Origin: a virus
Length of the DNA: 21,007 nt
Reading direction: 5' to 3' (one strand)
Virus record (IMG/VR): IMGVR_UViG_3300001450_000209
Coordinates: 4,635-25,641 of that record
Position 1 is the stretch's first letter. Every line of letters starts with the position of its first letter. Below, piece by piece: positions 937 through 21,007 of this stretch. The notes beneath the pieces were generated by a model that did no database searches, was not told where the DNA came from, and saw only the letters and a program-made list of their open reading frames with translations. Both the position numbers and the translations under genes were made by a program.

Positions 937-1143
937 ATGGTAACACTAAGAATTTTAAACGAAACAGGACACACGCAATTAGAGATGGCTTCATCCGAAG
1001 TTATTGAACAGATAGACCAACACCCGACCCATTGGCTTTTCGTTGATGGTGAAATGGTAAGTCGAAGCGAAGTAAATGAGATTAACTGGGATGAAGTTGC
1101 TGATGTAACATTGACTCCCGCAATTGTTGGAGGAAACTACTAA
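937..1143 (+). CDS. Ubiquitin-like (beta-grasp, MoaD/ThiS-like) protein ending in GG-NY
   Basis: This 68-residue protein has the size and order of a ubiquitin-like modifier: a first strand (VTLRIL), a turn, a second strand (TQLEM), a helix (SEVIEQI), a WLFVDGEMV strand pair, and a last strand VTLTPAIVGG. The ending matches the MoaD/Ubl pattern of a hydrophobic strand, Pro and a terminal di-glycine. Here G65-G66 are followed by N67-Y68, so a peptidase would have to expose the di-glycine. I chose the ATG at 937, preceded by GGTGA, over the GTG at 928. An E1-like enzyme, an E2-like candidate and a JAMM peptidase follow within 5 kb, which supports a protein-tagging role. Sulfur carriage for a cofactor is the alternative. 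Confidence 0.68.
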   Translation: MVTLRILNETGHTQLEMASSEVIEQIDQHPTHWLFVDGEMVSRSEVNEINWDEVADVTLTPAIVGGNY

Positions 1144-1182
1144 GTTTCTTGATAGTCCTAAGATTATCTCAAGGTGTATTCT

Positions 1183-1461
1183 ATGGCCCTTTTTCGGGAT
1201 TTCAATGAGTGTAAGGGAATCGTCTCTCTTATGCTCAAAGACTTCTCGGAAGAGGGCCAAAAGCGTATAGAAGACACTATCAAATATTGCGAGCATCTAG
1301 AAGATGATGCCGACAAACGCTTTGCATTAACACATTCCGTAAAAAAAGAATTATGGGATATTCCTATAGCAGTAGATACAGGCTTTGTAAAGTATCTAAT
1401 CAACAGGGTGAATGAATTGAAAATACTTATTGAATACAAAAAGGTGAACGACGATGAATAA
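1183..1461 (+). CDS. Hypothetical protein, mostly helical
   Basis: This encodes 92 residues with alternating charged and hydrophobic positions that suggest a helical bundle. It has only two cysteines (in NECKG and KYCEH), not arranged as a metal site. The ATG at 1183 follows AAGGTG at a good distance, so I prefer it to the in-frame GTG at 1174. The 3' end overlaps the next small gene by 8 bases, which implies translation coupling. Its place between the Ubl and the E2-like gene makes it a possible accessory part of that system, but nothing in the sequence assigns a function. Confidence 0.6.
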   Translation: MALFRDFNECKGIVSLMLKDFSEEGQKRIEDTIKYCEHLEDDADKRFALTHSVKKELWDIPIAVDTGFVKYLINRVNELKILIEYKKVNDDE

Positions 1462-1609
1462 TCCCGAATATGTTCCTAATACTAGAGGAAAACCAATAGC
1501 AACTCGATGCCGAATATGTGGAGGGCAATTAACAACACCACAGGAATTTAAAATAGAGGCACATGAAAGATGTGTTAAAAATTACAAATCAAAAAAATAC
1601 ATGATGTGA
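1454..1609 (+). CDS. Small zinc-finger protein
   Basis: The ORF encodes 51 residues with C19-x2-C22 and then H37-x2-C40, a C-C-H-C zinc-finger layout, followed by a Lys-rich tail. It overlaps the end of the preceding gene by 8 bases, and its stop codon overlaps the possible GTG start of the next gene. Small fingers of this type are scattered through the window and probably bind nucleic acid or act as adaptors. The specific role is unknown. Confidence 0.6.
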   Translation: MNNPEYVPNTRGKPIATRCRICGGQLTTPQEFKIEAHERCVKNYKSKKYMM

Positions 1610-1614
1610 ATAAA

Positions 1615-2976
1615 ATGAATATTATAATTAGAAGAACAGGAGAAATAAACGAAGAAATAAAAATTAACGGATTCTTTTTCGATGTAGTGAATAATAAAAT
1701 CCGTATGCCAAAATACATAAACTTAGGTGGAGATTGGCAATCTATAGAAGAAGACCATGTTTGGGATGAATCAAATATTTATCGTTATTCTCAATATTTG
1801 AGAAACGAATTACTAGGAAGTGGTTTTAGAGTTGCTGTTGGAGATGGTAATTTAGGAAGTGCCGATGCTATCACATCAAACTTAGCAAAAACTATTTCTA
1901 AAAAAATACAGAGATATTTTATTGAGGAAACCCTCGATACTGAAGTTGTTTTAGTCATTGGCGGTAATGAAATATGGATAGAAAAACCATACGCCATCAA
2001 TGGAATAAAAATGTCCTTGAAAGAATTATCATTTAAGTTGAGTAGAATTATTCAAGCCTATGGTAATATATTTAATAGACACGAAAGTGAAGAACATAAA
2101 TCCGAAACAAAGAAAGCAATACGGAGAATAATGAAAACTCCCGAAGACATCCTTTATTGTTTGGAAAATAGAGTTCCCTTCTACTTTTTCACCATAGGAA
2201 AAAAAGAAAATGTTCGATTAAATCTTAAACAAATAGGAACATCAAATTACGCTCTTGAAATATCCGATGGTAAATGGGGTGAAATAAAAGAAAGTGATTT
2301 AACTACATATCTAGGTCATTATTTGCATGGTCATAAAAGAGGTAGTTGGAAGTTCTTAAGTCCTTCAAAACTTTATTCTAGAATCATGGGTAAAGACCCA
2401 ATGGAATCTCAACTAAAAGTAATGATTGCTTTTCTTCAACAGAATAGAACTCAAGATATTGTTGAGAAGAGAGCCAAAGAACTGATTGAAGATATGGCTA
2501 TACAGTTCAAAGATAGAATTTTAGTCATTCCTCCGATAGAATCCGAAGAAGGTTTAAGAGATAGTAACGGAGTAGTAAGAACACCAATGAAAGTCTTAGT
2601 CAAAGGTCAAAAAACAGATTGGCTTTTGGTAGAAAATATCTACAATTATAGCCATCGAAATAACCCTCAAAGAGTTCACACTCATTGTTTAATGACAGAA
2701 ATTGAAAATCAAGGAGAAGAAGATGAACATAAAGTGACTCGTTGGAATGGCCCAATATGTATTAACACGGGTGGGAAAAATCCATCGTTGGGCGACCAAT
2801 TCGCATCTAGAATATTTTCACTAATGAATGACTCTTCTATATCAAAGAGAGTTAATACGATAGGTGGCTACATGTTAAACCAAGAAAATAGAATAAGAAT
2901 ACCACTAAAGGAGTGTTTTACAAATGAAAAGAAACAATACAAATACGATGAAATGCTTGGAATGTCAATCCAATGA
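1615..2976 (+). CDS. Large protein with a candidate E2-like (UBC-fold) C-terminal segment
   Basis: The product is 453 residues from the ATG at 1615; a GTG at 1606 in the same frame would add three. Residues 1-300 are not recognised. From about 300 on, a strand-rich part is followed by VHTHC (354-358), then WNGPICIN around C382, then a helix with FASRIFSLMND. E2 enzymes have the order strand, N-G-x-I-C-L around the catalytic Cys, a Pro-containing loop, and a helix ending in SLL-x-DP, so C382 is a plausible thioester cysteine. The usual HPN just before the Cys is not obvious, although HTHC lies upstream. The link to E2 rests on this motif similarity and on the nearby Ubl, E1-like and JAMM genes. 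The gene overlaps the TFB gene by 53 bases. Confidence 0.45.
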   Translation: MNIIIRRTGEINEEIKINGFFFDVVNNKIRMPKYINLGGDWQSIEEDHVWDESNIYRYSQYLRNELLGSGFRVAVGDGNLGSADAITSNLAKTISKKIQRYFIEETLDTEVVLVIGGNEIWIEKPYAINGIKMSLKELSFKLSRIIQAYGNIFNRHESEEHKSETKKAIRRIMKTPEDILYCLENRVPFYFFTIGKKENVRLNLKQIGTSNYALEISDGKWGEIKESDLTTYLGHYLHGHKRGSWKFLSPSKLYSRIMGKDPMESQLKVMIAFLQQNRTQDIVEKRAKELIEDMAIQFKDRILVIPPIESEEGLRDSNGVVRTPMKVLVKGQKTDWLLVENIYNYSHRNNPQRVHTHCLMTEIENQGEEDEHKVTRWNGPICINTGGKNPSLGDQFASRIFSLMNDSSISKRVNTIGGYMLNQENRIRIPLKECFTNEKKQYKYDEMLGMSIQ

Positions 2977-3772
2977 CTTTAGCCTAGATACAAGGCTAGG
3001 CGAATTGGTTTGTAATGAATGTGGTTTGGTTTTAGTTACCGAACCCTTTGAGCAAACCTCCTATGCCTATGACGCTAATGGTGAAAGAATTAGAGAGGCT
3101 TGGAAAAACAACCCAACTCTTGTCAAAGGAATGAGACAGTGGGGTAGAAGTGATAGAGCAATACACACAGGAATTACAATGTGTAAAGTATTACTTTCAT
3201 CACTGAACAGTGCCAAGTCTTTATCGGATAGAGTAGACCAACTTTACAGGTCGCTGTATCGAAAGCATGTCTTCACTACAACTATTCTAGAAGACAGGGC
3301 GGCGGCAGTAGTATATTATATTCTCAAAGAAGCAAACCTGCCTTTCACTTTGAAAGAAGTGTGTAAGGAATATGATTGTGTTGAGAGAAGAGTATTCAAA
3401 CTCGCTAAGAAGATAGCAAATGAATTAAACAATACATCAGTATTTCTAATGAGAGATAGTAGTCCTTTCGCAGAGAAATACGCAGTGGGTCTTGGCAACC
3501 AAACATTTGTTTCAAAGGTTGGCCGAGTAGCAAACCACTATGATAACTTAGTAAAATTAACAGGAGATAATTTGCGGCCATCGTCGCCGGTAGCATTCTG
3601 TTGGATTGTTTCGTTATTAGAAAATATGGGTATAACCCAAAAGGTTATTTCCGAACACACAGGTTTCACGACAAGAGCGATTTACGATGAAACCAAAAGA
3701 CTACTAAAAATAAAAAACACAAATAAAGAAGAAATAGAAGGGAGAGGAATAGAATGGATAGAAACATATTGA
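2924..3772 (+). CDS. tfb: Transcription initiation factor TFB (TFIIB family)
   Basis: This 282-residue protein carries an N-terminal zinc ribbon (C11-x2-C14 and C30-x2-C33), with GELVCNECGLVL matching the TFIIB ribbon closely. A linker with the charged B-reader-like stretch follows, and then two cyclin-like helical repeats at about 95-180 and 195-270. The second repeat contains a clear helix-turn-helix (VISEHTGFTTRAIYDETKRLL). TFB recruits RNA polymerase to TATA/BRE promoters, so a viral copy could redirect host transcription to viral genes. The ATG at 2924 lies inside the end of the upstream gene; ATG 2948, just before the first CxxC, is a possible later start. The 3' end overlaps the E1-like gene by 19 bases, so the two are probably co-expressed. 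Confidence 0.88.
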   Translation: MKRNNTNTMKCLECQSNDFSLDTRLGELVCNECGLVLVTEPFEQTSYAYDANGERIREAWKNNPTLVKGMRQWGRSDRAIHTGITMCKVLLSSLNSAKSLSDRVDQLYRSLYRKHVFTTTILEDRAAAVVYYILKEANLPFTLKEVCKEYDCVERRVFKLAKKIANELNNTSVFLMRDSSPFAEKYAVGLGNQTFVSKVGRVANHYDNLVKLTGDNLRPSSPVAFCWIVSLLENMGITQKVISEHTGFTTRAIYDETKRLLKIKNTNKEEIEGRGIEWIETY

Positions 3773-4332
3773 TTATAGGCGCAGGGGGAATTGGGAGTCA
3801 TTTGATTCGCATTCTTGAAAGTGTTGTTGGAGACGGAACGAAAGAAAGATTGTATAACATCAATGTTTCCGACCCCGACACTGTAGAATTAAAGAATTTA
3901 ACATACCAAGACTTCAAGAGAGAAGACATAGGTAGAAAGAAAGTCACCTGTATGAAAAAACACAGTCAAGTAAATGGTGCAAACCCATACCCAATATTGA
4001 CTGAAACGCAGTTGAAAGGATATGACTTAGTAGTATGTTGTGTAGATAATTTAGACGCTAGAAGGCTCTTGTATCGCTCACAGGTTAAGTGGCTAGACCT
4101 TCGCTCTCAAGGGCGTAATGCGGCCTTTATTTCATACAAGGCTGACCCATCAATGTATGATACTATGTTGGCAGGGCCGGACGGTTCTTTCAGTTGTCAA
4201 GGTGATTCTTGGGATGGTTCTAGTAAAGGACTACATTTCATGCACATAGCAATTGCAGGTATGGCGGCTGAATGGATTCAGCGTTGGTTTAATGGTGAAT
4301 CAGTTAATGACTTTATGGTGGTGAATGTATGA
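3754..4332 (+). CDS. ThiF/E1-like adenylating enzyme
   Basis: The family activates the C-terminal glycine of a ubiquitin-like protein by adenylation. Visible motifs are the nucleotide loop G9-A-G-G-I-G14, the acidic strand end D40-P-D42 leading to NLTYQ (48-52), DIGRKKV with K62/K63, and VVCCVDN with D98, which would hold Mg-ATP. C148 in SFSCQGD is a candidate thioester cysteine; C95 and C96 are also present. Two points are unusual. The protein is only 192 residues (ThiF/MoeB proteins are usually about 240-270) and lacks paired CxxC zinc sites. The Arg expected in the NLxRQ motif is Tyr. The gene overlaps TFB by 19 bases at its start and the next gene by ATGA. The Ubl at 937 is the natural substrate candidate. 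Confidence 0.82.
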   Translation: MDRNILIIGAGGIGSHLIRILESVVGDGTKERLYNINVSDPDTVELKNLTYQDFKREDIGRKKVTCMKKHSQVNGANPYPILTETQLKGYDLVVCCVDNLDARRLLYRSQVKWLDLRSQGRNAAFISYKADPSMYDTMLAGPDGSFSCQGDSWDGSSKGLHFMHIAIAGMAAEWIQRWFNGESVNDFMVVNV

Positions 4333-4460
4333 AAACAATTGAAATAATTAAAAAGTGGGAGGATGCCTTCGATACTGCGTTTTTAGGAGATGCAGATAAC
4401 TTTGAACATATAGAAATATTGATAGAGGCTTTAGAAAAACTACGGAGTGAAGAAGAATGA
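4329..4460 (+). CDS. Very small acidic protein
   Basis: A 43-residue ORF starts in an ATGA overlap with the E1-like gene and ends in an ATGA overlap with the next gene. The tight coupling on both sides supports it as real. The product is helical and acidic (ends RSEEE) and has no Cys. I do not recognise it. Confidence 0.55.
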   Translation: MKTIEIIKKWEDAFDTAFLGDADNFEHIEILIEALEKLRSEEE

Positions 4461-4723
4461 AGTGCGATGTTTGTCATGGTAAAATAGACGAGCATAGTCA
4501 CAACGGTAAAGTTTACTGGACTGAGGGACATAATGCCGAACCTTTAGTTAGTGGTCGTTGTTGTGATGCGTGTAATAGTTTAGTTATTGGATTTAGAATG
4601 TTTGCCTATTCCAAGCACCCCCACTCAATTCATTACAGGCTAGAAATTGAAAAACAAAGAGAGATACAACTAAAAGTTGCAGTTATGCAAAGAGTAGATA
4701 GAGAAAGAGGTGAAGAAGAATGA
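4457..4723 (+). CDS. Small zinc-binding protein
   Basis: This 88-residue protein begins MKCDVCHGKI and later has GRCCDACNS, giving two Cys pairs (C3/C6 and C36/C39) about 30 residues apart with several His between. This is a treble-clef-like or zinc-ribbon arrangement. The second half is a charged helix ending in EEE. It starts in an ATGA overlap with the gene before it and ends in an ATGA overlap with the gene after it. It may bind nucleic acid or act as an adaptor in the surrounding operon. No family is recognised. Confidence 0.65.
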   Translation: MKCDVCHGKIDEHSHNGKVYWTEGHNAEPLVSGRCCDACNSLVIGFRMFAYSKHPHSIHYRLEIEKQREIQLKVAVMQRVDRERGEEE

Positions 4724-5313
4724 ATATATTTGCACTATCAAAAGACCCCGTAGAATCAGCCCAACAAATGCTAGACAAACATGTAGTTAAAATGCCAACT
4801 GAAAGTTGTCAAATGCTACACACTAATTCCCTTTACTTTTTGTTTTGGGAATCTCATGGTAGAGAGCCTTCTTTGAGAGAACTGAAAGAGTTTCATAAAG
4901 AGTCGCACTTCAAATACTTGATGAAACCTGCTATGCTTAATCACCCTAGCACTATTTGGGCTAGACAAACTAAAGCAAATTACATGTGGCTATACAATCA
5001 TGCTATGGCCCTTTGTAAAGAATATACATTTAGATACGGTAAAGTTCACGGAACAGAAAAAAGAGTTAAAGATAGTTTTACTTTCTCTTATGAAGAAGAT
5101 GACTTAACTCCTGTATCTATTGCTATGGATGACATGTATAGACTACCTAAAGAAAAACATTGTTGGGATTTTGTAATAAGGTCTTATCAACATTATTACT
5201 TGAGAGGTAAATGGGATTTTGCCTTTTGGAGTAAAAGAAAAGAACCGGACTGGTGGCCCGAAAATCACCGATACAATATGATAAAAAATAGAAAACCATT
5301 TGGAGGAATATAA
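4720..5313 (+). CDS. Conserved viral protein of the DKHVVKM type
   Basis: The 197-residue product starts with a beta strand (MNIFAL), a KDP turn, a helix and then DKHVVKMPTESCQML, later NHPSTIWARQTKANYMWLY and CKEYTFRYGK. I know this pattern from proteins widespread in phages of aquatic bacteria. Those are sometimes annotated as related to pyrimidine-dimer DNA glycosylases, but I am not aware of a proven function. It is rich in His, Trp and Tyr and has no signal peptide or membrane segment. The start is fixed by the ATGA overlap with the preceding gene, and the next gene begins immediately after the stop. Confidence 0.65.
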   Translation: MNIFALSKDPVESAQQMLDKHVVKMPTESCQMLHTNSLYFLFWESHGREPSLRELKEFHKESHFKYLMKPAMLNHPSTIWARQTKANYMWLYNHAMALCKEYTFRYGKVHGTEKRVKDSFTFSYEEDDLTPVSIAMDDMYRLPKEKHCWDFVIRSYQHYYLRGKWDFAFWSKRKEPDWWPENHRYNMIKNRKPFGGI

Positions 5314-5532
5314 ATGAAATATACAGAGAAAGACTTAGGAAATAAAATAGATTATGATGACGATAGCGGCTCTTACTATGATGAAAGAATTGTAGAAGTG
5401 TTTTGCGGTATTTGCAGTGCTAGATTTGTTGGCCCAATTAGACAAGCCGGTGGATTTATTGCAGGGCATGAATCGTTTCACGCATGGGAATTTAAAATCG
5501 CTATGAATGCCGAAGATGGGATGGTGGCTTAA
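5314..5532 (+). CDS. Small C2H2-like zinc-finger protein
   Basis: The ORF encodes 72 residues. The N-terminal third is acidic (DYDDDSGSYYDE). It is followed by VFCGICSARF and, after a Gly-rich turn, H52-x3-H56 (GHESFHAW). The C-x2-C ... H-x3-H order with phenylalanine spacing is that of a classical C2H2 finger. It lies between the DKHVVKM-type gene and the JAMM peptidase with no gap on either side, so it is probably co-translated. It could be a DNA-binding or protein-adaptor finger. Confidence 0.65.
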   Translation: MKYTEKDLGNKIDYDDDSGSYYDERIVEVFCGICSARFVGPIRQAGGFIAGHESFHAWEFKIAMNAEDGMVA

Positions 5533-6081
5533 ATGGGTAAAAGCGGAGAATGGTTTGCTAGAGAAGAAGAAAAAAGTATTAGAGAAGCAGAAGAGTATTG
5601 GGAATACCAAGAAACAATTTCTAGTGCTAGAAGTGAAATAATTCCTTTCTTACAGGGAGTTTGGGTCAATCTACATCAAGAATGGGGAGACGACGCAATA
5701 CACACTAAAGCACTACAAGATGCAATATGGAAAGCCTCTACTGAAATGCTACCATGTCTTGAAGTTCAAGTAGTAATTGATGCTAATAACAGAGCGCACA
5801 TTTCATCCGGTTCATCGGGATATGTAAGTTTCAAAGTAGAACCAAAGAAGATGAAATTACCTATCAAGTGTTGGTTTCATACTCATCCATTTGGTTCAGC
5901 ATACTTTAGTGGAACTGATTGGACTACTGTTGCTATTTGGGAACCTGTAATGAAAACTGCCTATGTTATTGGTGGAGACGACCACTACGGTTTTTGGGAG
6001 AATACTAAACCTAAGCAATTAGAGATTAAGCAAAAGGATGGTAATTATAGAATACAGATTAGAGCAGGTGAAGAAGAATGA
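5533..6081 (+). CDS. JAMM/JAB (MPN+) metallopeptidase
   Basis: This 182-residue protein contains the zinc-site signature H116-T-H118-P followed by S126-G-T-D129, matching the HxHP-x(7)-S-x2-D pattern of active JAMM enzymes. Upstream strands (EVQVVID, GYVSFKV) supply the usual beta core, and E71 or E77 could be the catalytic Glu. JAMM enzymes cut after the di-glycine of ubiquitin-like proteins. The Ubl at 937-1143 carries two extra residues after its GG, so maturation of that protein and removal from targets are both plausible. The first 60 residues are helical and charged. The gene starts directly after the stop of the zinc-finger gene and ends in an ATGA overlap. In tailed phages JAB domains also occur in tail assembly proteins, but no NlpC domain or tail gene is visible here. 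Confidence 0.8.
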   Translation: MGKSGEWFAREEEKSIREAEEYWEYQETISSARSEIIPFLQGVWVNLHQEWGDDAIHTKALQDAIWKASTEMLPCLEVQVVIDANNRAHISSGSSGYVSFKVEPKKMKLPIKCWFHTHPFGSAYFSGTDWTTVAIWEPVMKTAYVIGGDDHYGFWENTKPKQLEIKQKDGNYRIQIRAGEEE

Positions 6082-16515: not shown

Positions 16516-17301
16516 ATGAAATTTACAATAGATGCAAAGGAGTTTAGAACAGGATTAGAAGACATTATGGGTAGTGGTAAATATGCTCAAAGTGGTGGAG
16601 TAAAGTCGGGGGTATTAAGTGAATACACTTACTTAGATTTGAAAGACAATCCTAGCAATACTGCGTTTGGGCTATTGGCACTATGGAATGGTGATGGTAG
16701 TTACATCAACAAAATAGTTCTTGATGTAACAATACTAGACGACTCTACACATAATGCAACAGTGAACATCAAATCACTACTGCCTTTCTTGAAGAAAATG
16801 TCGGGTGAAATAGAAATAGCAATCCGTGATAGAGTGACTATTTCTTCCGATAATACTGTAATTACTTTGCCTAGAGTTAATCAACATCCACACCACGAAG
16901 TTATTCAAAGACTATATTTAATGGACTTAAACTTAGATGGTGAAATGCCTCAATTTAATGGTAAAGAATTTGAGGGTTCTTTTGACATGTCTACTGCCGA
17001 TTTCAAAGAAGTAATTAACCAATGTGAATTGATAGGAACAGGTGTCTATAAATTAGATTTTGATTTTGATGAAAATGACTTAGGAAAAGTTAAGATTTCT
17101 TCAACAGTAGTTGGAGTTAAACAATATACCACTACAGTAAATGTAGAAAACGGAAAGGGTTATTCAGCAACGGTGGCTTTTACAGGCCCACTTCATAAGT
17201 TCTTCAAAGGAGATACAATTACCTTCTATGTTAAAGATGAGTTCCCTATACTACTAGTTGGAGAAGACCGACTACTAGTTAAGGTTCCTCATATGGAATA
17301 G
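16516..17301 (+). CDS. pcn: PCNA-like DNA sliding clamp
   Basis: The 261-residue protein is close to the usual clamp length (about 245-260) and has the two-domain repeat of short helices and long strands. The end is diagnostic: GYSATVAFTGPLHKFFKG, then TITFYVKDEFPILLVGEDRLLVKVPHME, which matches the closing strands of PCNA (L/F-x-F/Y-x3-D-x-P-I/L-x-L ... L-x-P-R/H-x-E). It would tether PolB, ligase and the PIP-box protein at 11299-12144 to DNA. It is loaded by RFC encoded upstream. The gene ends one base before or in the possible GTG start of the polymerase, and it is preceded by AGGAGGAAGAA. Confidence 0.85.
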   Translation: MKFTIDAKEFRTGLEDIMGSGKYAQSGGVKSGVLSEYTYLDLKDNPSNTAFGLLALWNGDGSYINKIVLDVTILDDSTHNATVNIKSLLPFLKKMSGEIEIAIRDRVTISSDNTVITLPRVNQHPHHEVIQRLYLMDLNLDGEMPQFNGKEFEGSFDMSTADFKEVINQCELIGTGVYKLDFDFDENDLGKVKISSTVVGVKQYTTTVNVENGKGYSATVAFTGPLHKFFKGDTITFYVKDEFPILLVGEDRLLVKVPHME

Positions 17302-17309
17302 TGATTATA

Positions 17310-19052
17310 ATGATAATAACAAATAACAATAATAATATTTATCTCTCTTGGAGAGACATCAACGGAAACAAAGTGATTAAGAATGATACTTACAAGCCTT
17401 ATTTTTATATTAAAGAAACTGCTAGAGAACCTGCCACTTACAAGGTAACTAAAACAATAACTAGAAACTATGAATATGAACATGGTGATTGGGTTAATCT
17501 AGATGGTGAACAGTTAAAGAAAGTCTATGTGGATATGCCTAAAGATATCTACAAAGCAAAAGAAAACTTTTCCCAAACCTATGAAGCCGATGTTCCTTTT
17601 CACTATCGTTATGCTATAGATGAATTAGATTCAATACCGGAATACAATATGCGTAAATGGTATTGGGATATGGAGTGGCAACAAGGTGGAGAACATGATA
17701 ACAAAATTACTGCTATTGTTTGCTATGATAATTTTGATAGTCAATTCTATACTTGGACTTGGCAACCCGAAGAAAACAAAGATATTGTAGAACCTAAAGT
17801 AGAAGGCTACAATTCTATTTTCTTTATCGAAGATAGTGAAGAAGAAATGATTCGGCAATTCTTAATCTCTATGGAACACTGCGACCCCGATATGCTAATT
17901 GCATGGTTTGGTTTAAAGTTCGATTTACCTAAATTACTAGAACGATGTTGTGCATTAGATATTAACCCATTAGGAATGTCACCATTAGGTGTTATTGATG
18001 GAGTCTATCTAAAAAACGAATCTTGGGTCTTTACTAAAGGTGACGGATACAACCCAACTGCTCAACCAATAAAAGGTAGAATTACTCTCAACTTAGACTT
18101 GGCCTTTGAAAGACAATGGAATGATGCTCAAAGAGGGACATTACCTAGTCTATCATTAGACTATGTTTCAAAGACTTTATTCGGTGAAGGAAAACATACC
18201 GAGACTAAGTTTGAAGACCCTAATGAGTTTTACCGTAGAGCATGGATAGAAGATGCCTCGGCATATCTACAGTATGCAATTATAGATGTAGAATTACTTA
18301 GAAGAATTGATGAAGAGAACTTTACCTCCGAGGCAATTCTATCTCTACAGCGATTACTAGTAGCACCATTCGACGCTTGTTTCTTTGCATCTAATATGGG
18401 TTCAATGTATTTTATGCGTAATGCTTGGTGGAAAGCCCCAACAGGTAGTAAGCCTAAACATAAAGTGTGTGATTCATGCGGCTACAAAAACCCTAATGAT
18501 AAGAAACTAAAGACCTGTAAGAAGTGCAAAGCGAGTCTTTCTTATTCGGGTGCTATGGTTTACAATCCATTAGATGAAGGAACAAACGGATTACATTACA
18601 ATGTAGCGGCGTTTGATTTTGCAGGTCTTTATCCTAGTATGATTATTGCTAGGAATATTTCATTTGAAACAAAGAGTGATGTTGAAACAGTATTTGGTGC
18701 TGATTTAAACACACCTCAAAACTTGAGAGAAGAAGAGTATGAGAGAAAAATGCTATACTACAAAACAGATAAACTTGGTCTATTGCCTAAGTCTCTGTTG
18801 GCTTTGAAAGACTTGAGAAACGAATACAAGGCTAATATGAAAGAGGCTAGGAATAGTAACGACAAAGAGCAAACTGCTAAGTGGAATAATAATCAAATGG
18901 CAGTCAAGCGACTCATGGCATCCTTCTACGGAATCCTCGCATACAAGGGGTTCGGTTGGGCTGATGTTGATTTAGCGGCTAGTATTACTGCTAGTGCGAG
19001 AGAGGCGATTAGACTAGCGGCATTTAAAGCGAAGGAGATGAAAGGATGTTGA
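17310..19052 (+). CDS. polB1: Family B DNA polymerase, N-terminal half (split gene)
   Basis: The product has 580 residues. Exonuclease motifs: Exo I D120-M-E122; Exo II with D205, although the usual Asn is Phe (AWFGLKFD); Exo III Y322-x3-D326. Motif A is DFAGLYPS (D436). Motif B is KRLMASFYG, with Ala in place of the usual Asn of Kx3NSxYG. A zinc ribbon (C387, C390, C403, C406) is inserted just before motif A. The protein stops after ASAREAIRLAAFKAKEMKGC, the helix that normally precedes motif C. Motif C starts a separate gene at 20384. I take ATG 17310; GTG 17301 would add three residues. The two chains probably assemble into one enzyme. Confidence 0.93.
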   Translation: MIITNNNNNIYLSWRDINGNKVIKNDTYKPYFYIKETAREPATYKVTKTITRNYEYEHGDWVNLDGEQLKKVYVDMPKDIYKAKENFSQTYEADVPFHYRYAIDELDSIPEYNMRKWYWDMEWQQGGEHDNKITAIVCYDNFDSQFYTWTWQPEENKDIVEPKVEGYNSIFFIEDSEEEMIRQFLISMEHCDPDMLIAWFGLKFDLPKLLERCCALDINPLGMSPLGVIDGVYLKNESWVFTKGDGYNPTAQPIKGRITLNLDLAFERQWNDAQRGTLPSLSLDYVSKTLFGEGKHTETKFEDPNEFYRRAWIEDASAYLQYAIIDVELLRRIDEENFTSEAILSLQRLLVAPFDACFFASNMGSMYFMRNAWWKAPTGSKPKHKVCDSCGYKNPNDKKLKTCKKCKASLSYSGAMVYNPLDEGTNGLHYNVAAFDFAGLYPSMIIARNISFETKSDVETVFGADLNTPQNLREEEYERKMLYYKTDKLGLLPKSLLALKDLRNEYKANMKEARNSNDKEQTAKWNNNQMAVKRLMASFYGILAYKGFGWADVDLAASITASAREAIRLAAFKAKEMKGC

Positions 19053-20383: not shown

Positions 20384-21007
20384 ATGGAAGTAGTCTACGG
20401 ACATACAGACTCTATCTACATCAAAGTAGAGTCTATAGAACAAGCACATGAAAGCCTAAAAGAGATTAACGACTATGTAAGAGAGTCATTCCCCAACACA
20501 TTAGGGTTGGATGAACACCCCGTAGTTCTAGAGTTTGAAAAGTATTTTTCTTCTCTAGGTGTTGGCATAACTAAGAATCGAAATGCAGGTTTAATCTCAT
20601 GGGAGGATGGGGTCTTTTTAGAAGAACCAAAGTTCACCATGACAGGATTTACGGCTAAGAGAATATCCGAAACTCCACTAGCAAAGAGAATACAGACTAC
20701 TGTATTAGAAATGTGGGTAGAAGGAAAAAGTGAAGATGACATAGTAGATTACTGCCGAGAAGAATACTTGAAAACATTGAATGGCGAAAACCCAATTACA
20801 GATGTTGTCAAAAGAAGTCGCTTGAAAGAAAGCAGGTTTTCTCTAAAGTGTTCATGTAACAAAAAGTATAACTTACTTGAGATATACGATGTAGAGTATT
20901 GTTCTAAGTGCGCTAAACTGAAAAAACACTTCACTACTTTAGACGGTAAAAGGCCGAGCATAGGTTCCGGTATTGCAGGTATGCTTTACGGACATGAAGA
21001 ATTGGGT
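20384..21007 (+). CDS. polB2: Family B DNA polymerase, C-terminal half (split gene, truncated by window end)
   Basis: The frame is open for 208 codons to the window edge. It starts almost directly at motif C, Y5-G-H-T-D9-S; the usual YGDTDS has His at the first Asp, while the catalytic metal-binding Asp D9 is kept. The position of the KKRY motif reads TKNRNAG (63-69), a weakened version. MTGFTAKRISETPLAKRIQ is the thumb-side segment following it in B-family enzymes. A second zinc ribbon (C156, C158, C173, C176) lies in what should be the thumb. Joined to the gene ending at 19052, the chain is continuous with no visible loss. The usual C-terminal PIP box would be beyond the window. Confidence 0.92.
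   Translation, partial: MEVVYGHTDSIYIKVESIEQAHESLKEINDYVRESFPNTLGLDEHPVVLEFEKYFSSLGVGITKNRNAGLISWEDGVFLEEPKFTMTGFTAKRISETPLAKRIQTTVLEMWVEGKSEDDIVDYCREEYLKTLNGENPITDVVKRSRLKESRFSLKCSCNKKYNLLEIYDVEYCSKCAKLKKHFTTLDGKRPSIGSGIAGMLYGHEELG

Follow-up and report, generated by a model that had tools for sequence, protein, structure and literature searches.

Cassettes of class 6d, known on plasmids as PRTRC, have been described to combine a ubiquitin-like protein (Ubl), a JAB peptidase, an E1, and an E2 (Iyer et al. 2006; PMC1779556). In the annotated PRTRC cassettes that we fetched from plasmids for comparison, the order runs ParB, E, C (the Ubl), F, B (the E2, Prok-E2_D), A (the JAB), and ThiF (the E1). 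In archaea, protein tagging by SAMP with an E1 and a JAMM peptidase is known (e.g., PMC4443979), and Borgs, which are archaeal extrachromosomal elements, carry JAMM deSAMPylases, mostly multicopy peptidases (PMC12660748). Besides, the RaFAH study noted that few auxiliary genes are as prevalent in the genomes of archaeal viruses as a MoeB/ThiF gene, for which it drew a link to ubiquitination (PMC8276007). The present study concerns a viral DNA stretch of 21,007 nucleotides (hereafter the window; positions 4,635 to 25,641 of the 27.5-kb IMG/VR virus record IMGVR_UViG_3300001450_000209). Window positions 937 to 6081 encode, all on the + strand, a Ubl, an E2 candidate (E2c), an E1, and a JAMM peptidase, together with a transcription factor B (TFB) and smaller proteins. 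We consider it probable that they constitute a virus-encoded, self-contained, and reversible Ubl conjugation module of magroviruses.

No report of the whole cassette was found in the open literature that we searched. Ubiquitin, ThiF, and JAB go unmentioned in the magrovirus papers PMC10160649, PMC5628999, PMC7318539, and PMC8651126 and in two profiles of the International Committee on Taxonomy of Viruses (ICTV); a prior mention in Philosof 2017 or Prabhu 2025 is possible. The Ubl, the JAMM, the cysteine-bearing partner E2c, and the constant linkage among them seem to be novel.

Linkage and conserved residues of the cassette

A first-pass annotation of the window had listed these genes as lying on one strand, some in overlapping frames, and every open reading frame (ORF) that it named was recovered at its position on the + strand; E2c overlaps TFB by 53 nucleotides and TFB overlaps the E1 by 19. 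Scans of IMG/VR yielded 157 E1, 188 Ubl, 315 JAMM, and 196 E2c relatives, and the best 80 loci were kept per scan. Presence counts cover the loci with enough flank, the locus sets share contigs and are not independent, and remote relatives beyond the best 80 matches may differ. The complete set of Ubl, E2c, TFB, E1, and JAMM occurred in 48/48 loci anchored on the E1, 70/70 anchored on the Ubl, and 49/49 anchored on JAMM. TFB had been noticed in the middle of the cassette, and in each of these sets (48/48, 70/70, and 49/49) it does sit between E2c and the E1. When the anchor was the clamp loader, which lies outside the cassette, JAMM was found in 26/26 loci and the E1 in 21/26. In the five loci devoid of E1, JAMM lies at most 1.5 kb from the locus edge, so that an E1 would fall off the fetched piece; the three E2c loci in which the E1 is missing are either short or stop close to E2c. 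No sufficiently flanked relative carries the E1 without the Ubl and JAMM. The order Ubl, zinc finger, E2c, TFB, E1, and JAMM is retained throughout the set, but a glycosylase gene changes position. The recurrence of the same genes together on one strand in every long-enough relative is far from chance. Among magrovirus-like contigs the cassette belongs to the core, and its occurrence in essentially all relatives examined makes a central role in infection probable.

The Ubl (937 to 1143, +, ATG start) has 68 residues and ends in AIVGG-NY. Its AlphaFold2 model, built with 14 homologues, has a predicted local distance difference test score (pLDDT) of 80 and shows the order strand-strand-helix-strand-strand-helix-strand followed by a disordered C-terminal tail. 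The structures in the PDB that Foldseek placed nearest to it belong for the most part to the ubiquitin-like, ThiS, SUMO-like, ferredoxin, and GB1 grasp folds (best E = 0.086). The top match in BFVD comes from an uncultured phage (E = 1.4e-3, probability 1.00, TM 0.56); behind it rank ubiquitin/SUMO-like proteins of viruses and proteins of the tail tip. The predicted fold is thus ubiquitin/ThiS-like; topology and neighbours agree with the beta-grasp proposed in the first-pass annotation, and a non-beta-grasp fold was not obtained. Searches of Pfam, PHROGs, NCBIfam, PADLOC, and PDB sequences returned no meaningful match for the Ubl. The C-terminal GG occurs in 88/88 distinct homologues and is 100% conserved over 89 alignment rows. 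All 88 end in A[IV]VGG plus 0 to 9 residues, with 0 to 2 in nearly all of them, and GG is terminal in 19/88. By mean pairwise identity the Ubl ranks first (63%), followed by E1 (61%), chaperonin (51%), JAMM (44%), E2c (34%), and TFB (28%). That the Ubl is the most conserved of the set fits a modifier with several partners.

The E1 (3754 to 4332, +; 192 residues) matches Pfam ThiF with E = 3.7e-16 and 59.4 bits against a cut-off of 28.1, and it carries the GAGGIG motif and the Mg-ATP Asp, in accordance with its earlier identification. Its best NCBIfam match is PRTRC_ThiF (E = 1.3e-12, 47.6 bits), which does not reach the TIGR03736 cut-off of 144.75; all 16 viral E1 members match this model. The UbaA model gives 1.7e-6, with 27.6 of 450 bits. 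Across 118 distinct sequences, GxGGxG, D40, D42, N48, K63, D98, N99, R103, and C148 are invariant, and C148 (100% conserved) aligns with the crossover-loop cysteine C184 of E. coli ThiF. In a maximum-likelihood tree of 35 E1s, which has long branches and a root set by midpoint only, the viral E1s form a single clade (100/99). They group with PRTRC, crAss, and two JAB-paired plasmid E1s, apart from ThiF/MoeB (96/96). The plasmid matches spanning more than 90% of the viral E1 were all PRTRC ThiF. Judged from its sequence, the window E1 is clearly a ThiF-family protein, and it is PRTRC-like in its best profile match and tree position.

The JAMM (5533 to 6081, +; 182 residues) shows the HTHP...SGTD motif and a Pfam Prok-JAB match just below the cut-off (E = 1.9e-4, 21.7 bits against 25). 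Its family profile finds AMSH-type (AMSH/STAMBP) JAMM deubiquitinases in the PDB (E = 0.001). The metal site (Glu plus HxH-x7-S-xx-D), i.e., E77, H116, H118, S126, and D129, is 100% conserved in 124 distinct sequences. The earlier assignment as a JAMM peptidase is thus borne out by motif, family match, and relatives.

E2c (1615 to 2976, +, with a possible start at 1606) has 456 or about 450 residues depending on the start, and its residues are numbered here from 1606. In 112 distinct sequences, C385, D397, Q398, R402, N408, and D409 are invariant. Cys385, in the NGPIC segment of the C-terminal domain, is the single invariant cysteine, and its surroundings are invariant although E2c members share only 34% identity. 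The C-terminal domain is modelled as a helix, four strands, Cys385, and a helix (predicted template modelling score, pTM, of the model 0.54). The GPICIDN stretch resembles the GxxICLD stretch of classical E2s. Cys385 may be the catalytic residue. The order of elements in the model would fit a UBC fold, and the cysteine an E2; an E2 role for E2c is likely but unproven. Of the full set first proposed, the Ubl, E1, JAMM, and a conserved cysteine protein stand, whereas the NGPIC protein is only a candidate E2, for which searches by sequence and by Foldseek gave no match to E2s.

Between the Ubl and E2c lies a 51-residue zinc-finger protein (1454 to 1609, +; C-x2-C-x14-H-x2-C), whose C19, C22, H37, and C40 are 100% conserved in 91 distinct sequences. 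It is present in 70/70 Ubl loci, 49/49 JAMM loci, and 43/48 E1 loci, and one homologue shows sub-threshold RING-type matches. Speculatively, this protein could be an adaptor or a minimal E3-like partner of the E2 candidate.

Proposed conjugation cycle and competing explanations

The analysis shows the presence, co-occurrence, and conserved residues of these genes and predicts the fold of the Ubl; the cycle proposed below is inferred in all its catalytic steps, in the part given to E2c as an E2, and in its targets. JAMM would trim the one or two residues that most Ubl copies carry after GG. The E1, together with ATP, would then adenylate the GG terminus, and the Ubl would be passed onto Cys148 of the E1 and further to Cys385 of E2c. 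E2c would attach the Ubl to lysines of its targets, perhaps with the zinc-finger protein as an adaptor for this attachment, and JAMM would also take the Ubl off the targets. The module sits in the region of TFB, replisome, and chaperonin genes, a location that suggests that it acts early and that its targets are transcription-replication proteins of the host or the virus and not those of the virion.

The five co-occurring genes, the GG of the Ubl, the invariant E1 and JAMM residues and Cys385, the Ubl fold, and an E1 on the PRTRC/crAss side of the tree count for a conjugation module. The class 6d precedent (PMC1779556) counts for it as well, as does the lack of sulfur-partner genes: rhodanese, cysteine desulfurase-type (Aminotran_5), TtuA/Ncs6-type (ATP_bind_3), and CysM-type (PALP) genes are all missing from 20 near-genome-length magrovirus records (80 to 96 kb). 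On the other side, several points weigh against this interpretation. The ATP-binding Arg of NLxRQ is a Tyr (Y51, NLTYQ) in 118/118 E1s, so that E1 activity is not assured; in the alignment, this Arg is also missing in crAss and in one plasmid relative. The Foldseek E-values of the Ubl are weak (0.086 at best in the PDB and 1.4e-3 in BFVD). No E2 homology was found for E2c by hidden Markov model, profile-profile comparison, or Foldseek, and E2c lacks an HPN-type motif, as its alignments show no conserved Asn about eight residues before Cys385. Pfam, PHROGs, NCBIfam, PADLOC, and PDB sequence searches gave nothing meaningful for E2c, and the full E2c model, which is weak (pTM 0.54), had no meaningful match among the 50 best Foldseek hits listed. 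As a control, PRTRC B, a known E2 family, was put through this profile comparison and failed to retrieve Prok-E2_A/B; the sequence negative for E2c therefore carries little weight, as the test is without power between known E2 families.

Alternatively, the Ubl, E1, and JAMM could modify proteins on their own, in a manner similar to SAMPylation with UbaA, and E2c could be a cysteine enzyme of some other kind, a scaffold, or the principal substrate. The archaeal SAMP precedent noted above and the lack of detectable E2 similarity in E2c speak for this explanation. SAMP tagging is not known to need an E2. However, E2c has an invariant cysteine in the helix-four-strand-Cys-helix order, and every adequately flanked locus that has the Ubl and E1 has E2c as well. 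We regard tagging by the E1 alone as unlikely.

The alignment of Cys148 with ThiF Cys184, which serves sulfur transfer (PMC1779556), together with ThiS among the structural neighbours of the Ubl, would fit a sulfur carrier. Here the E1 would make a Ubl thiocarboxylate donor, as with ThiS, MoaD, CysO, and TtuB, and JAMM would release the product, for cysteine synthesis or tRNA thiolation. Trios of Ubl, E1, and JAB also occur in sulfur pathways (PMC1779556). Yet none of the four sulfur-partner gene types turned up in the 20 records, although host enzymes could supply these steps. Besides, a sulfur carrier leaves the third invariant cysteine protein unexplained, and the E1 falls outside the ThiF/MoeB group. 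Such a function seems improbable to us. Finally, a Ubl acting as a processed assembly factor or as a tag on structural proteins, as in the Ubl-JAB pair TAPI/TAPK of lambdoid tails, is very improbable: phage tail regions do use Ubl and JAB (PMC1779556) and tip attachment proteins are among the weak structural neighbours of the Ubl, but the cassette lies in the replication half, beside the genes for TFB, chaperonin, ligase, clamp loader, and PolB, and it includes an E1, an enzyme that tail Ubls can do without.

If a conjugation module is indeed present, viruses of Poseidoniales, which are abundant and ubiquitous archaea of the ocean, would parallel the hijacking of ubiquitin by eukaryotic viruses, with a complete system of their own. 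The module would also represent a new, very divergent ubiquitin-type branch and a new candidate E2 family, and it would assign a function to genes that are commonly labelled as MoeB/ThiF ‘auxiliary metabolic genes’ (PMC8276007). The fixed presence across every sampled lineage implies that the cassette is not an optional accessory gene. More far-reaching, and in our view slightly less probable than not, is the proposition that an entire order of archaeal viruses abundant in the sea has, as a core early function, a Ubl of its own, a dedicated E1, a new E2 family, and a deconjugase, which would reprogram host proteins and be coupled to the viral TFB; viruses of prokaryotes would then carry a conjugation pathway that is complete. 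The small sizes of the Ubl, E1, and JAMM (68, 192, and 182 residues) make them simple to express and test.

Gene neighbourhood and virus assignment

Nearly all ORFs of the window lie on one strand. In the cassette, the Ubl is followed by a 95-residue ORF (1174 to 1461, +), the zinc-finger ORF, E2c, TFB, and the E1. The 95-residue ORF has no family match in Pfam and is usually present in relatives, with homologues in 61/70 of the Ubl-anchored and 48/49 of the JAMM-anchored loci. The virus-encoded archaeal TFB (2924 to 3772, +) matches the Pfam TFIIB Zn ribbon with E = 6.1e-9. An 88-residue ORF, a pyrimidine-dimer glycosylase, and a 72-residue ORF separate the E1 from JAMM; these three were dropped from the system, as they move or are missing in relatives. 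Downstream of JAMM are GroES-like and GroEL-like ORFs, a ligase, a clamp loader, and a split PolB; the chaperonin, ligase, clamp loader, and polymerase were identified by eye from the sequence rather than by family hits.

The ICTV description of magroviruses includes TFB, RFC-S, PolB-NTD/CTD, GroEL, and GroES (PMC10768690). The window holds a magrovirus marker set on one strand, with TFB, RFC-S, PolB-NTD/CTD, the chaperonin pair, and the ligase. At the order level, this gene content matches Magrovirales, and by gene content the host would be Poseidoniales archaea. When GTDB genomes were scanned for the E1, only three contigs came up, filed under Maricaulis and Altibacter metagenome-assembled genomes (L091, L092, and L093), which are probably mis-binned magrovirus pieces; a recent host capture of the cassette was rejected on this account. 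INPHARED held no relative of the Ubl, E2c, or JAMM, and no cellular or plasmid home was found for the cassette.

As a separate observation, PolB is split (17301 to 19052 and 20384 to 21007) just ahead of motif C, which reads YGHTDS and not YGDTDS in 37/37 distinct magrovirus fragments found. In 34/37 fragments, YGHTDS lies within 15 residues of the ORF start. The ICTV map legend gives PolB-NTD/CTD separately (PMC10768690), but no mention of the His of motif C was found.

Comparison with described systems

The first-pass annotation had pointed to Bil, CBASS type II, and PRTRC as bacterial operons that combine an E1, an E2, a Ubl, and a JAB. A likeness is seen mainly with PRTRC, through the E1, whereas to Bil and to CBASS type II (Cap2/Cap3) the cassette bears no close resemblance. 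Those two share E1 and JAB chemistry and a phage context with it, but they are host defence systems with recognisable E2 domains. PADLOC gave only partial E1 matches for the cassette, with no E2 or JAB match; the cassette has no E1-E2 fusion, and no CD-NTase was seen beside it. The archaeal SAMP/UbaA/HvJAMM system has a Ubl with a C-terminal GG, an E1, and a JAMM in archaea as well, whereas it is chromosomal, with a MoeB-type E1 and no known E2, and it is not known to occur as one cassette. Unlike Borgs, magroviruses have a single JAMM and, in addition, a Ubl and an E1 that belong to them.

Adjacent JAB and E1 genes borne by a virus are also found in crAss-like phages (crAss001 gp77 JAB and gp76 ThiF), whose E1s are on the outer tree branch shared with the viral E1s. 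In contrast to magroviruses, these phages have bacterial hosts and much longer proteins, and no Ubl is recognised alongside. In two crAss-like loci (L272, 1256 to 4466, and L273, 1225 to 4408), a JAB protein (Prok-JAB 4.9e-4 and 1.1e-6, respectively) adjoins a ThiF/E1 and a third protein. These loci are possibly another phage Ubl-type system whose Ubl is not recognised. Among plasmids, a Chlorohelix locus (L274, 4 to 3270) holds Prok-E2_D (2.7e-25), JAB, and ThiF genes that are not named PRTRC, and a Deinococcus proteolyticus locus (L103, 4971 to 9084) appears to hold two tandem pairs of PRTRC B and ThiF.

With PRTRC, the viral cassette shares the component types, the single strand, and an extrachromosomal element; in both, the Ubl lies upstream of the gene in the E2 position, and the E1 and JAB come last. 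The hhalign probability between the viral E1 and PRTRC ThiF is 99.3%. On the other hand, JAMM and PRTRC A reach 14.5%, in a short local match over the HxH...FSxTD stretch, and the Ubl with PRTRC C and E2c with PRTRC B remain below 1%, with no NCBIfam match. The viral order ends with E1-JAB, whereas PRTRC ends with JAB-E1; the viral cassette has TFB, where PRTRC has the ParB, E, and F genes; and the viral Ubl ends in GG, while the PRTRC Ubl mostly ends in KG. ParB, PRTRC E, and PRTRC F had no match among the cassette proteins, where ParB was sought only via Pfam in ten cassette ORFs. A reading of E2c as a fusion of PRTRC F and B was ruled out, as no similarity was seen. PRTRC/class 6d is the nearest known kind, with only the E1 clearly similar in sequence and below the curated cut-off. 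The viral cassette may work like a class 6d system, yet we do not file it as PRTRC.

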